The position numbers and the translations under genes are program-made. A DNA stretch of 64,000 nucleotides from Halobaculum saliterrae (GTDB taxonomy: Archaea > Halobacteriota > Halobacteria > Halobacteriales > Haloferacaceae), in contig NZ_WUUS01000004.1 in NCBI RefSeq assembly GCF_009831625.1, positions 77,743 to 141,742 of the forward strand, given 5' to 3'. Positions 59,414 to 64,000 of this stretch are shown here, in pieces. Numbering within the stretch: the first letter of the stretch is position 1; every line of letters starts with the position of its first letter. The notes beneath the pieces were generated by a model. The model ran no database searches. It was not told where the DNA came from and saw only the letters and a program-made list of their open reading frames with translations.

Positions 59414-59611
59414 CGTCGGACGGTCGACGCCCGGACCCCCGTTCTCATCGTTCTCGCTTCCGCGAGCGACGGCGTCGGTGCTCCAGACGGCGTCGTTCGC
59501 GACGTCGGCTCCGTCGAAAGACAACCCGGACCCGAGTGAAAACGCCACACAGCGCCAGCGAGAACACGGAACTCCGGCAGGTCTTTGGCCCGCGGGCGAC
59601 CATCCACGCAC

Positions 59612-60778
59612 ATGACGGGAGTACGAGTCGCGGGGGTCGGGCTGACGCCGTTCGGCGAGCACGCCGGGCGGACCGGGCGGGACCTGTTCGCGGAGGCGGC
59701 GCTCGCGGCGCTCGACGACGCCGGCGTCGCCGGCGACGAGGTGGAGCATCTCAACTACGGCAACTTCATGGGCGCGCTCGCCGAGCGGCAGGGGCATCAG
59801 GCCCCCATCATGACCGAGGCGGCGGGCCTGCGCTGTGCGGGCACCCGCTACGAGGAGGCGTGCGCGTCGGCGGGCGTCGCCGTCCGCGAGGCCGTCCGCG
59901 CGGTCCGCTCGGGCGAGAACGACGTCATGCTCGCCGGCGGGATGGAGCGGATGACGAACCTCTCGACGGCGGAGGTGACCGAGTCGCTGGCGGTCGCCGC
60001 CGACGAGCTGTTCGAGGTGCGTGCGGGCGTCACCTTCCCCGGGGCGTACGCGCTGATGGCACGCGCCTACTTCGACGAGTACGGCGGGGACCGCGAGGAC
60101 CTGGCCCACGTCGCGGCGAAGAACCACGCCAACGCCGTGAACAACGAGTACGCGCAGTACCAGCGCGAGATCACCGTCGAACAGGCGCTGGACTCGCCGC
60201 CGGTGGCGTCCCCCCTCCACCTGTTCGACGCGTGCCCGATCACCGACGGCGCGAGCGCGCTCGTGCTCGTCTCCGAGGAGTACGCCGAGGAGCACGACCT
60301 CGACGCGTCGGTCGCGATCACGGGAACGGGACAGGGCGGCGACCGCGCGGCGCTGCAGGACCGCACGGACATGGCCCGCACCCCCGCCGCCGCCGATGCG
60401 GCCGCCGAGGCGTACGGCGACGCCGGCGTCGGGAGCGATCAGGTGGACGTGGCGGAGGTGCACGACTGCTTCACCATCGCGGAGGTGATGGCGCTGGAGG
60501 CGCTGGACCTGTTCGACCCCGGCGAGGGGGTCGGCGCCGCGCGCCGCGGCGACACCACTCGCGACGGCGACCTCCCGGTGAACCTCTCGGGCGGCCTGAA
60601 GGCGAAGGGGCACCCGGTCGGCGCGACCGGCGGCTCGCAGATCGCCGAGATGACGCGCCTGCTGCGCGGCGATCACCCGAACAGCGACGCCGTGCCCGAC
60701 GCGACGGTCGGGCTCACCCACAACGCGGGCGGAACGGTCGCAAGCGCCGTCGTTCACGTGCTGGAGGTGGCCGAATGA
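59612..60778 (+). CDS. Thiolase (acetyl-CoA acyltransferase family)
   Basis: A 388-residue thiolase-fold enzyme. The nucleophile Cys84 lies in EEACASAGVAVR; the active-site His is in LKAKGHPVGATGGSQIAE, and the C-terminal block HNAGGTVASAV replaces the usual CxGGG-type loop. The pattern places it in the archaeal thiolase/SCP2-like group, which needs a DUF35 partner and carries out acetoacetyl-CoA formation or cleavage. The DUF35 gene overlaps by four bases (ATGA). The start at MTGVRVAGVG is preferred to an ATG nine codons earlier. The pair may also make HMG-CoA precursors; degradation is equally possible. Confidence 0.9.
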   Translation: MTGVRVAGVGLTPFGEHAGRTGRDLFAEAALAALDDAGVAGDEVEHLNYGNFMGALAERQGHQAPIMTEAAGLRCAGTRYEEACASAGVAVREAVRAVRSGENDVMLAGGMERMTNLSTAEVTESLAVAADELFEVRAGVTFPGAYALMARAYFDEYGGDREDLAHVAAKNHANAVNNEYAQYQREITVEQALDSPPVASPLHLFDACPITDGASALVLVSEEYAEEHDLDASVAITGTGQGGDRAALQDRTDMARTPAAADAAAEAYGDAGVGSDQVDVAEVHDCFTIAEVMALEALDLFDPGEGVGAARRGDTTRDGDLPVNLSGGLKAKGHPVGATGGSQIAEMTRLLRGDHPNSDAVPDATVGLTHNAGGTVASAVVHVLEVAE

Positions 60779-61170
60779 GCGACGCCGAGCCCGATCCGCC
60801 GGCGAACACCGGGTACGACGAGTGGGCCGACGCGCTGGCTGACGGGGGGTACTTCGTCGAGTGCGCGAACGGGCACGGCAGCCTCCCCCCGCGGCGCGTG
60901 TGCCCCGAGTGCGGGAGCACCGACCTCTCGGAGGAGTCGCTTCCCGAGACCGGGGAGGTCGCGACGTTCTCGGAGGTCCACGTCGCGCCCTCCGGCTTCG
61001 GCGAGGAGCCGCCGTACGTCACGGCGGTCGTCGGGTTCGGGTCCGTCCGGCTCACCGGCATCGTCCGGGACCTGTCGGCCGAGGAGATCGAGATCGGAAC
61101 CCCCGTGCGCCCCGACGTGGAGCGCAACGACGCCACCGGGAACCGGCTGGTCGTGTTCCGGCCGGCCTGA
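60775..61170 (+). CDS. DUF35 Zn-ribbon/OB-fold thiolase partner
   Basis: A 131-residue protein with an N-terminal zinc ribbon: Cys30, His34 (ECANGHG), Cys43 and Cys46 (CPECGS). The first half-site is C-x3-H where many relatives have C-x2-C. The C-terminal OB fold is rich in beta strands. In archaea such proteins bridge thiolase and HMG-CoA synthase so that acyl groups can be channelled. The coupling to the thiolase by ATGA supports a complex. Confidence 0.9.
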   Translation: MSDAEPDPPANTGYDEWADALADGGYFVECANGHGSLPPRRVCPECGSTDLSEESLPETGEVATFSEVHVAPSGFGEEPPYVTAVVGFGSVRLTGIVRDLSAEEIEIGTPVRPDVERNDATGNRLVVFRPA

Positions 61171-61216: not shown

Positions 61217-62188
61217 CTACTCCCGTTCGTCCTGCTCGACGGTCACCGTCCCGTCGGGTCGCTCGCCGACGACGACGTCGACGAACTGATCGCCGAACTC
61301 GACGTGCGGGAGCAGCATCGCGTCGTCGAACACGACCAGCTCGCAGCCGGCGGCGTCGGCTAACTCGCGCCCCTCCGACAGCGGCGGGAGGTCGGCCTCG
61401 CGCCCCCACACGATCGTCGCCGGGGCGTCGAGGGCCGCGAGCGCGCCCGCGAGGTCCACGTCGCTGTTCAGGAAGCCGGAGACGAACGACGCCGGCGCGA
61501 AGCGCGCGCCCTTCTGGTGGGTCGTGCGCCACTCGTACGCCTGCCACTCCTCGCCGGCCTTCTCGGGGTCCCAGTAGCCGTGGTCGGCGTTGAAGTAGGC
61601 GATGGAGGGCTTCGAGGCGAGCAGGCCGAAGACCGCGTCGCCGACGATCGGCGCCCGGAGCAGCTCCCGGACGGCGGTCTTGGGCGGCTCGGGGCCGGCG
61701 ATCGCGGTCGGGCACACGAGGGTGAGATCGGCGAGATCGAGGTCCTCGGCGACGCCGACGACGTACGCCGCCGTCAGCGACGACGCGACGACGCGCGGCT
61801 CGTCGTACTCGGCGAGGAAGTCGCGTACGAAGTCCTCGTACAGCGCCGCCGAGTAGCGCAGCGGCGGCCGGTCCGAGCGACCGAATCCGGGGAGGTCGGG
61901 CGCGACGACGCGGTACTCCGCCGCGAGGGCGTCGAACACCTCGCGCCACTCGCCGGCGGATCCGGCGGCGTTGATCCCGTGGAGGAGGACGAGCGTCTCG
62001 TCGTCCTCGTCGCCGGCCTCCGTACAGGAGATGTCCATCCCGCGCCAGCGATAGCTCCGTTGTCGTCCGTCGAGCGGCGGCTCGAGTTCGCCCGCCCTCG
62101 CGCGCAGTGCCCGCGTCGCGGCGACGCTGGCGCCCGCGCCGAGCGCGACGTACTTCGCGGTCGAGGCGAGCTTCGATCGGAGAGTCAT
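61217..62188 (-). CDS. Alpha/beta-fold hydrolase
   Basis: A 323-residue hydrolase with a possible N-terminal hydrophobic helix (about 10-25). The oxyanion-side motif VLLHGINAAGSAGEW and VVAPDLPGFGRSDRP are clear. The nucleophile elbow reads VVASSLTAAYV, so both flanking Gly positions of GxSxG are replaced (A and T); Ser is still present, and the late His (in LPHVEFGDQ) can complete a triad. Substrate unknown; candidates are esters, thioesters or lactones given the neighbouring acyl-CoA genes. Its end converges on the DUF35 gene. Confidence 0.82.
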   Translation of the reverse strand: MTLRSKLASTAKYVALGAGASVAATRALRARAGELEPPLDGRQRSYRWRGMDISCTEAGDEDDETLVLLHGINAAGSAGEWREVFDALAAEYRVVAPDLPGFGRSDRPPLRYSAALYEDFVRDFLAEYDEPRVVASSLTAAYVVGVAEDLDLADLTLVCPTAIAGPEPPKTAVRELLRAPIVGDAVFGLLASKPSIAYFNADHGYWDPEKAGEEWQAYEWRTTHQKGARFAPASFVSGFLNSDVDLAGALAALDAPATIVWGREADLPPLSEGRELADAAGCELVVFDDAMLLPHVEFGDQFVDVVVGERPDGTVTVEQDERE

Positions 62189-62295: not shown

Positions 62296-63366
62296 CTACA
62301 GCGGCTCCTCGCCGTCGACGATCCGCAGGCACCGCTCGGCGAGCGCCGGCACCCGCGTCTCCATCGTCGGGTACAGCGGGTCGTCGCTGTTACCCTCCAG
62401 GTACCGCCGGTAGAACATCTCCCCCAGCGCGGCGAGCTTGTACACCGCGAGCGTGCGGTAGAAGCGGTCGTGCTCGTAGTCGATCCCCGTCGCGTCCTCG
62501 TAGCGCGCGACGAGATCGCGCCGGCTCGGGTAGCCCTCGCGCTCCATGAACGTCGAGGTCAGCTCCGGCGTCGCCGGCGCCGGGTCTCCCGGGTCGCGCC
62601 AGAACGAGAGCATCCAGCCCAGGTCCGTGAGCGGGTCGCCCAGCGCCGACAGCTCCCAGTCGAGGACGGCGACCAGTTCCGGCGGGGTCCCCGGCGCGAA
62701 CATGACGTTGTCGAGCTTGTAGTCCCCGTGAACGAGCGCGTGCTCGTGGTCGGCCGGGCAGTTGTCCCGCAGCCAGTCCGTCACCTCAGCGATCTCGGGC
62801 ACCTCGCGGTCCTCGGCGGTCACCTCGAACGCCCACCGGAACTGCGTCGCCCACCGGTCCACCTGTCGCTCGGTGAAGCCCGCGGGACGGCCGAAGTCGC
62901 CGAGGCCGACCGCCCCGGGGTCGACCGCGTGGACCGCCGCGAGGGTGTCGACGAGTTCCTCACCGACGCGGCGGCGGTGCTCGGGCACGGCGAAGCGCTC
63001 GGGCTCGTCGTCGCGGAGCACGTCGCCCGCGGTCCGGCCCATCACGTAGAAGTCCGAGCCGAGCACGTCGCGGTCGTCGCACGCGAGCACCGTCTCGGGC
63101 AGCGGCACGGAGGTGTCCTGCAACGCGTCCATCACGCGGTACTCCCGGAGCACGTCGTGGGCCGTCTCGGCGGTCTCGCCGGGCGGCGGCCGCCGGATCA
63201 CGAGCTCTCGGTCGCCGTAGGTGACGAACAGGGTCTCGTTGGAGTGACCCTCCGGATGGCGGCGCACGTCGAACTCGTCGACCGGCCCCAACTCGGCGGA
63301 CAGTCGCTCGCGCAGCGCTGGCGGGTCGACGAGGCGGCGGAAGTACGCCTCGGAGTCGTCCGACAT
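62296..63366 (-). CDS. ACAD10/11-type phosphotransferase (APH-like kinase)
   Basis: A 356-residue kinase-like protein of the aminoglycoside phosphotransferase fold. The catalytic loop is HGDYKLDN (213-220, base Asp215) and the metal site DWE at 236-238 (LDWELSALGDPL). Segments such as REYRVMDALQDTSVPLPET, GLGDFGRPAGF and VHGDYKLDNVMF resemble the N-terminal kinase half of ACAD10/ACAD11, where it phosphorylates 4-hydroxyacyl-CoA. The divergent acyl-CoA dehydrogenase gene starts 126 bases away, giving the two halves as separate genes. The antibiotic-kinase reading is less likely. Confidence 0.87.
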   Translation of the reverse strand: MSDDSEAYFRRLVDPPALRERLSAELGPVDEFDVRRHPEGHSNETLFVTYGDRELVIRRPPPGETAETAHDVLREYRVMDALQDTSVPLPETVLACDDRDVLGSDFYVMGRTAGDVLRDDEPERFAVPEHRRRVGEELVDTLAAVHAVDPGAVGLGDFGRPAGFTERQVDRWATQFRWAFEVTAEDREVPEIAEVTDWLRDNCPADHEHALVHGDYKLDNVMFAPGTPPELVAVLDWELSALGDPLTDLGWMLSFWRDPGDPAPATPELTSTFMEREGYPSRRDLVARYEDATGIDYEHDRFYRTLAVYKLAALGEMFYRRYLEGNSDDPLYPTMETRVPALAERCLRIVDGEEPL

Positions 63367-63492
63367 GCGGGTCAGTTGCACACCCCGAACGAAAAGCGCC
63401 GGGGGTCGTGAGCACCGCGGCAGCGTCCCCGCCGTGCGGTTTGAGCGACCGTTCGGGGGTACTGTTTTGCCCCGGCGGCCGGACTCGATGGT

Positions 63493-64000
63493 ATGGAGTA
63501 CGACGACAGCGAGGCGGCGCGCGCGCTGGCCGAGCGGACGCGGGAGTTCGTCGAGGAGGAGGTCATCCCGGTGGAGCGGGAGGTCCTCGGGGACGGACCC
63601 GTGAGCGACGAACAGCTCTCGGATCTCCGGGAGGCGGCTCGCGAATACGACGTGTTCTGCCCGCAGATCGGCGAGGAGTTCGGCGGCATGGGGATGGACT
63701 TCCGCGACGTGCTTCCCATGTTCGAGCAGGCGGGGCGCTCGCTGTTGGGCGCGGCGGCCTGCCGCGTCGACGCGCCCGACGAGGGCAACATGCACACGCT
63801 GGAGCTGTTGGGCACCGACGAGCAGCAGGAGCGGTGGCTCCGCCCGCTCGTCGCCGGCGAGATCTCCTCGGGGTTCTCGATGACCGAGCCGATGCAGGGC
63901 GGCGGGTCGGACCCGAAGATGATCCGCACGAGCGCGGAGAAGGAGGGCGACGAGTGGGTCATCGACGGCCACAAGTGGTGGACCACCGGCGGCACCGAGG
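63493..64000 (+). CDS. Acyl-CoA dehydrogenase (ACAD10/11-like), truncated by window end
   Basis: The first 169 residues of an acyl-CoA dehydrogenase, with the gene running off the right edge. Visible features are EEEVIPVEREV in the first helix, VDAPDEGNMHTLELLG, the MTEP motif (SGFSMTEPMQGGGSDP) that contacts FAD, and IDGHKWWTTGG, also close to the ACAD10/11 dehydrogenase domain. In those enzymes the domain removes the phosphate of 4-phosphoacyl-CoA. ATG 63493 is the likely start. The active-site base cannot be judged from this fragment. Confidence 0.9.
   Translation, partial: MEYDDSEAARALAERTREFVEEEVIPVEREVLGDGPVSDEQLSDLREAAREYDVFCPQIGEEFGGMGMDFRDVLPMFEQAGRSLLGAAACRVDAPDEGNMHTLELLGTDEQQERWLRPLVAGEISSGFSMTEPMQGGGSDPKMIRTSAEKEGDEWVIDGHKWWTTGGTE

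Follow-up and report, generated by a model that had tools for sequence, protein, structure and literature searches.

Animal ACAD10 and ACAD11 phosphorylate 4-hydroxyacyl-CoA and then eliminate the phosphate (PMC12440821, PMC11342911). In the mammalian enzymes a kinase half and an acyl-CoA dehydrogenase (ACAD) half form one chain, and in ACAD11 (8V3U/8V3V/2WBI) the residues R626, H634 and R637, beside the base D753, grip the 4-phosphate; mutating them leaves the phospho-intermediate (PMC12440821). A helix-breaking proline, Pro463, reported for ACAD10/11 and also for LCAD, is said to widen the ACAD11 cavity (PMC11342911; PMC11153573), and ACAD10 carries a HAD domain, attached to its kinase, which has an incomplete DxD motif, shows hardly any phosphatase activity and holds the kinase in check (PMC11342911). 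In bacteria split kinase/ACAD pairs are known, namely LvaA/LvaC of Pseudomonas putida and the Burkholderia pseudomallei orthologues, and the characterised LvaA/LvaC-type members convert 4-hydroxyacyl-CoA to 4-phosphoacyl-CoA and on to enoyl-CoA (PMC11342911, PMC6692424). Each half of ACAD10 can be exchanged for its B. pseudomallei counterpart, and the assays of ACAD10/11 and of a Burkholderia orthologue contained no LvaB (PMC11342911), a protein that P. putida requires. A further relative of APH fold, the 25-hydroxy-steroid kinase (25-HSK) of Sterolibacterium denitrificans (9FSG), phosphorylates a tertiary alcohol and thereby activates it for phosphate elimination (PMC8449060).

Here we report a pair of haloarchaeal genes which, like ACAD10 and ACAD11, comprises kinase and ACAD halves of the same fold and, like the bacterial pairs, is split, the comparison with the Lva proteins being made by description. 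We propose that the two proteins very probably divide an ACAD10/ACAD11-like activity between them, one as a 4-hydroxyacyl-CoA kinase and the other as a phosphate-eliminating flavoenzyme that feeds beta-oxidation. A literature search, with thin coverage of subscription papers, found no archaeal report of such a pair; since functional split pairs are already established in bacteria, the haloarchaeal pair is a new archaeal member and the split form itself is not new.

A divergent gene pair at the window edge

The window, the whole 64,000-base stretch of DNA that was analysed, spans G000:C4:77743-141742 in a haloarchaeal draft genome of 3.78 Mb, and the pair lies at its edge (Table 1). The ACAD gene runs 716 bases beyond that edge, and the part outside the window was taken from the same contig (G000:C4; full 407 aa at L006:4236-5459); the phosphate-pocket motif RLGPARLTHCMR and the catalytic aspartate of DGADEVH, both discussed below, lie past the edge. 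The preliminary description of this DNA had read the two genes as standing head to head at 126 bases: the spacing is exact, both genes are real, and every motif that it listed was found, REYRVMDALQ, GLGDFGRPAGF, LVHGDYKLDN and LDWELSALGDPL in the kinase and APDEGNM, MTEP and GHKWW in the ACAD. Two blocks of the intergenic region are kept within the genus, GGGGGTA-TGTTTT preceding the ACAD and AAAAGCGCC preceding the kinase, and appear promoter-like. In Pfam the kinase matches APH (6.7e-48) and the ACAD the N, M and C domains of Acyl-CoA_dh, while neither protein reaches the cut-off of any NCBIfam family. The nearest named ACAD matches are those of Halobaculum gomorrense (93%) and H. litoreum (92%).

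Table 1. Features of the pair and its flank, in window coordinates.
Feature	Position	Strand	Remark
Thiolase-like protein	59585..60778	plus	Neighbour of the pair conserved within the window's genus alone
DUF35/ChsH2-type OB-fold partner of the thiolase	60775..61170	plus	
Alpha/beta hydrolase	61217..62188	minus	Downstream of the kinase, same strand; conserved next to the pair within the window's genus alone
ACAD10/11-type small-molecule kinase (PF01636 APH), 356 aa	62296..63366	minus	Candidate 4-hydroxyacyl-CoA kinase; ATG at 63366, stop ends at 62296
Kinase metal-binding D-W-E motif (DWELS)	62653..62661	minus	
Kinase catalytic loop HGDYKLDN	62707..62730	minus	Equivalents of ACAD11 D220 and N225
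Kinase helix alphaC Arg-Glu	63142..63147	minus	Arg adjoining the alphaC Glu is a proposed CoA contact in ACAD11 (PMC12440821)
Divergent intergenic region	63367..63492		126 bp between the two ATGs
ACAD10/11-type acyl-CoA dehydrogenase	63493..64000	plus	ATG at 63493; first 169 of 407 codons

The dehydrogenase retains the phosphate pocket of ACAD11

With alignment columns checked against the ACAD11 chain numbering, the equivalents of R626, R631, H634 and R637 and of the base D753 are kept in the window ACAD and in all 34 aligned haloarchaeal ACADs, each of which carries RLGPARLTHCMR or a close variant together with the aspartate. The spacing R-x4-R-x2-H-x2-R is present in 121 of 121 haloarchaeal ACADs and the sequence DGADEVH around the base in 119 of the 121. 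None of 17 conventional ACADs (12 haloarchaeal, one from Thermus and four from the PDB) has the full Arg/Arg/His/Arg set, R631 alone being held in common, and the base is Asp in the window ACAD whereas it is Glu in every conventional ACAD aligned. The conventional ACAD that neighbours the pair in the window genome lacks both the Arg/His/Arg set and the Asp base. The equivalent of Pro463 in ACAD11 is Ala in the window ACAD, and P, A, Q or M occur there among haloarchaea and P, S or H in bacterial pairs; because its tree-mates vary at this site too, we treat it as variable and non-defining.

Comparison of whole sequences and folds places the protein in the same company. A sequence search of the PDB returned 4hr3 (Mycobacterium abscessus) and ACAD11 above all conventional ACADs, and the AlphaFold model of the H. 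gomorrense orthologue (pLDDT 88.8) gave 4hr3 and ACAD11 (8v3u, 2wbi) as its top fold matches, at TM 0.85-0.87 versus 0.78-0.84 for conventional ACADs. A tree of 53 rows, which included 25 haloarchaeal and 14 conventional ACADs, resolved the haloarchaeal proteins as one clade (100/100), sister to the ACADs of Thermus, Azospirillum, Cupriavidus, Massilia, Streptomyces and Georgenia (97/82) and contained within the ACAD10/11-type clade (100/100), with all 14 conventional ACADs outside. The nearest relatives, from Thermus thermophilus pTT27, Streptomyces, Georgenia, Cupriavidus and Massilia, share about 40-45% identity with the haloarchaeal ACAD, and a literature search found no assayed function for the Thermus, Cupriavidus and Streptomyces group. 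Besides an orthologue at 68-70%, G055, G024, G047, G079 and other genomes of genus code g25 have another ACAD with 61-64% identity to that of the window.

The kinase belongs with the kinase halves of ACAD10/11-type enzymes

The catalytic Asp and Asn of HGDYKLDN and the DWE of DWELS are invariant across the aligned kinase family, and the equivalents of ACAD11 D220, N225 and R176, together with the alphaC Arg, are present in 26 of 26 haloarchaeal kinases. The alphaC Arg, a proposed CoA contact like R176, is absent from the DUF6285-type kinases of Thermus and Massilia and from 25-HSK. In the PDB the best sequence matches were 9o56, ACAD11 (34% identity to the window kinase) and 3dxp, far above the aminoglycoside kinases, and the AlphaFold model of the window kinase (pLDDT 91.4) matched 3dxp best (Z 31.2) and the ACAD11 kinase at Z 21.2 over 231 residues, although such fold matches are by themselves no proof of function.

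The kinase tree used here has 38 rows and leaves other APH proteins out; an earlier version, in which three APH proteins of the same genome served with 9fsg as outgroup, had very long branches and was distrusted and rebuilt. The haloarchaeal clade (100/99) joins ACAD11, 3dxp, 9o56 and kinases of Burkholderia, Rhodococcus and Streptomyces, while those of Thermus and Massilia split off (100/99); the latter are of a distant type, 25-27% identical and encoded beside DUF6285, in contrast to the ACAD10/11-type kinases of haloarchaea. In Thermus and Massilia the ACAD is close to its haloarchaeal counterparts and the kinase distant, so that the histories of the two proteins differ among bacteria. Genes for DUF6285 proteins follow the distinct kinase type that has no alphaC Arg (L070, L204). 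In haloarchaea that lack the pair, namely G095, G056, G113, G082 and 14 other genomes, a remoter APH kinase was matched at E 1e-36 to 1e-54.

The second-best fold match of the kinase model is 25-HSK (9fsg/9ft5), which raises the question of the hydroxyl group attacked. The same two-step chemistry might be directed at a 3- or 5-hydroxyacyl-CoA, at a branched or isoprenoid acyl-CoA or at a sterol-like side chain, and the substrate range may indeed differ, given that the haloarchaeal ACADs form a clade of their own in which the cavity-shaping Pro463 position is variable. We nevertheless regard such a substrate as quite unlikely: 25-HSK is only about 25% identical to the haloarchaeal kinase, lacks the alphaC Arg-Glu pair and has other active-site residues and no known ACAD partner, no phosphate-eliminating partner gene is known near it (PMC8449060), and the residues that surround the 4-phosphate in ACAD11 are unaltered in the window ACAD.

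Kinase and dehydrogenase are inherited together

Presence was scored in 293 haloarchaeal genomes at E < 1e-90 for the kinase and E < 1e-100 for the ACAD. The kinase was found in 163 and the ACAD in 162, never alone: 162 of the 163 kinase-bearing genomes have it, as against none of the 130 kinase-less ones, and the sole genome with a kinase only is 78% complete. This co-occurrence is far beyond chance, with Fisher P-values that take no account of shared ancestry and are used descriptively. In each of twelve genera (by genus code) with mixed presence and absence, both genes shift together. Beta-oxidation capacity was considered as a cause of the pattern and ruled out; because a generic beta-oxidation protein, the fused 3-hydroxyacyl-CoA dehydrogenase/enoyl-CoA hydratase (HCDH-ECH), is present in 284 of the 293 genomes, the pair is not a mere mark of fatty-acid users. 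Across the phylum, a draw of 247 genomes yielded 19 ACAD matches, all inside the window's order and none in another class.

Among the matches listed, 126 genomes have both genes, which are divergent and less than 400 bp apart in 67, convergent at less than 400 bp in two and within 10 kb in 16 more; in the remaining 41 they lie far apart or on different contigs, and therefore the co-occurrence rests on more than linkage. Divergent adjacency below 400 bp was also seen at 44 of 80 named loci, and divergent pairs occur in Halobaculum, Haladaptatus, Halorussus, Halorubrum, Halorientalis, Natronococcus, Halococcus and Halorutilus, and on plasmid pHME132 of Haloferax mediterranei, where kinase and ACAD are WP_004060557.1 and WP_004060558.1. 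The bacterial pairs examined are co-directional, whereas the haloarchaeal ones are mostly divergent. A local order other than the divergent one is seen in the mapped loci L093, L108 and L109, where kinase and ACAD converge across some 2 kb that hold the HCDH-ECH fusion gene; to judge by the gap, the two genes are placed likewise in the Haloarcula loci L168, L173, L175 and L178.

A resemblance to a split ACAD10/ACAD11 was the central proposal of the preliminary description, and trees built with the ACAD10/11 relatives, in which both proteins fall into ACAD10/11-type groups, agree on it with the pocket and catalytic residues, the co-inheritance and the usual adjacency across haloarchaea. None of the refuting results that the description had named and that sequence analysis can reveal was encountered. 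The same observations bear on the reading that an ordinary ETF-linked acyl-CoA dehydrogenase happens to adjoin an unrelated APH-type kinase acting on a sugar, choline or an aminoglycoside. Databases do label the pair of strain DL31 generically, as an isovaleryl-CoA dehydrogenase and an aminoglycoside phosphotransferase, and the identity of the window ACAD to conventional ACADs (29-33%) is little under that to ACAD11 (33-35%). An ordinary dehydrogenase is, however, difficult to reconcile with an Asp base in place of Glu, an intact Arg/His/Arg pocket and the position of both proteins in the trees, and an unrelated kinase with a strict co-occurrence that extends to unlinked genes and with the alphaC Arg and R176, both proposed CoA contacts; we thus consider this reading very improbable. 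The two labels, which are carried by CP002989.1 (Halar_0303/Halar_0304) and other haloarchaeal records, are probably misleading, in that they suggest a false antibiotic resistance and a wrong pathway.

Neighbouring genes

Several genes recur around the pair at the 44 haloarchaeal loci that were mapped: the HCDH-ECH fusion, a short-chain dehydrogenase/reductase (SDR), a MaoC hydratase, acyl-CoA ligases, a conventional ACAD, small HTH regulators and a HAD hydrolase. The thiolase, DUF35 protein and alpha/beta hydrolase to which the preliminary description had drawn attention are all present, but outside the window's genus this neighbourhood is not conserved. A different alpha/beta hydrolase directly follows the ACAD (L006:5528-6415, equivalent to 64785-65672 and so beyond the window edge), and hydrolases related to it at 54-69% are found in other families close to the pair or to other genes of beta-oxidation (L074, L084, L094, L112). 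Its sequence HDIGG has Asp rather than Ser as the residue at the nucleophile site, a feature of haloalkane dehalogenases and epoxide hydrolases; a role as a Ser lactonase is thereby ruled out, and the enzyme therefore lends no support to the idea of lactone substrates.

The bacterial plasmid loci have related contents, with ACAD, SDR, kinase, DUF6285, thiolase and ligase in Massilia, ACAD, kinase and SDR in Georgenia, and SDR, ACAD, kinase, DUF6285 and a histidine phosphatase in Thermus. No counterpart of the LvaB that P. putida requires was recognised in haloarchaea. DUF6285, possibly the LvaB family, was sought as a haloarchaeal LvaB, with no such protein in any of the 293 genomes.

The SDR encoded downstream of the window ACAD (L006:7808-8635) bears on the pathway that the pair may serve. 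It shares 73% identity with the SDR next to the pair of Haloferax mediterranei. In bacteria SDR genes are neighbours of the pair in Massilia, Thermus and Georgenia and of the ACAD in Azospirillum, and LvaD is itself an SDR (PMC6692424). The pair could thus act chiefly in the catabolism of levulinate or other 4-keto acids with this SDR in the LvaD role, as a 4-ketoacyl-CoA reductase, which would be a special case of the activity proposed above and compatible with it. Yet the haloarchaeal and bacterial neighbouring SDRs are 31-36% identical, a level at which orthology is not established, and SDRs are commonplace in beta-oxidation clusters, so that we judge a principal role of this kind unlikely.

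Proposed mechanism and significance

Characterised relatives suggest a model for the 4-hydroxyacyl-CoA kinase and its flavoenzyme partner, including the reactions, the 4-position and the flow into beta-oxidation (PMC12440821, PMC11342911, PMC6692424). The kinase would transfer phosphate from ATP onto the hydroxyl of 4-hydroxyacyl-CoA, and the resulting 4-phosphoacyl-CoA would be bound by the Arg/His/Arg cluster of the flavoprotein ACAD. There the aspartate would take the C2 proton and, with transient reduction of FAD, phosphate would be expelled to leave 2-enoyl-CoA with no net oxidation; this product could then enter ordinary beta-oxidation through hydratase, 3-hydroxyacyl-CoA dehydrogenase and thiolase. 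If this model is correct, the phosphate-activation route for 4-hydroxy acids extends to a third domain of life, where the majority of sampled haloarchaea would have it.

As to natural substrates, we can only speculate that gamma-lactones or 4-hydroxybutyrate (4HB) are used. Haloferax mediterranei incorporates 4HB from gamma-butyrolactone into polymer (PMC3880725), and at least one organism with the pair therefore very likely contains a 4-hydroxyacyl-CoA, an observation with no tie to the pair itself. This cultured maker of 4HB bioplastic, with its pair on pHME132, makes the pathway testable, and the pathway might affect 4HB polymer yield.

A HAD-fold protein co-inherited with the kinase

A HAD-fold protein is encoded on pHME132 of Haloferax mediterranei (L067:5912-6634). 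Orthologues occur in 116 of the 293 haloarchaeal genomes; each of these 116 also has the kinase, and the 130 kinase-less genomes have no orthologue. Among the matches listed, the gene lies within 5 kb of the kinase in 57 genomes, 34 of them without the ACAD within 5 kb, cases that are not independent because many belong to one family. The distance to the kinase is often no more than some hundreds of bases, also where the ACAD is located elsewhere. Motif I reads D-x-G-G in 20 of 20 aligned sequences, so that the second Asp is absent, and the remaining HAD motifs are present. The DxGG form is found in other HAD proteins as well. An orthologue is absent from the window genome (28 PF00702 matches, none orthologous at E 1e-25) and from five sampled congeners, in contrast to ACAD10 with its attached domain, and beside the split pairs on bacterial plasmids only remote HAD matches, and no orthologues, were found.

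The parallel with the HAD domain of ACAD10, drawn from the published description of the latter, is suggestive only. We tentatively raise the possibility that many haloarchaea have a three-gene split ACAD10, composed of kinase, ACAD and DxGG HAD protein, in which the HAD protein might restrain or proofread the kinase as in ACAD10; the co-inherited gene could then allow the still unexplained regulatory HAD domain of ACAD10 to be modelled by a separate protein. In bacteria a histidine phosphatase gene follows the kinase in T. thermophilus pTT27 (L070:7029-8999) and Deinococcus radiodurans (L071:6013-7801), and its product is possibly a phosphate-removing or proofreading partner; the levulinate cluster of P. 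citronellolis likewise has a histidine phosphatase gene (PMC6692424).
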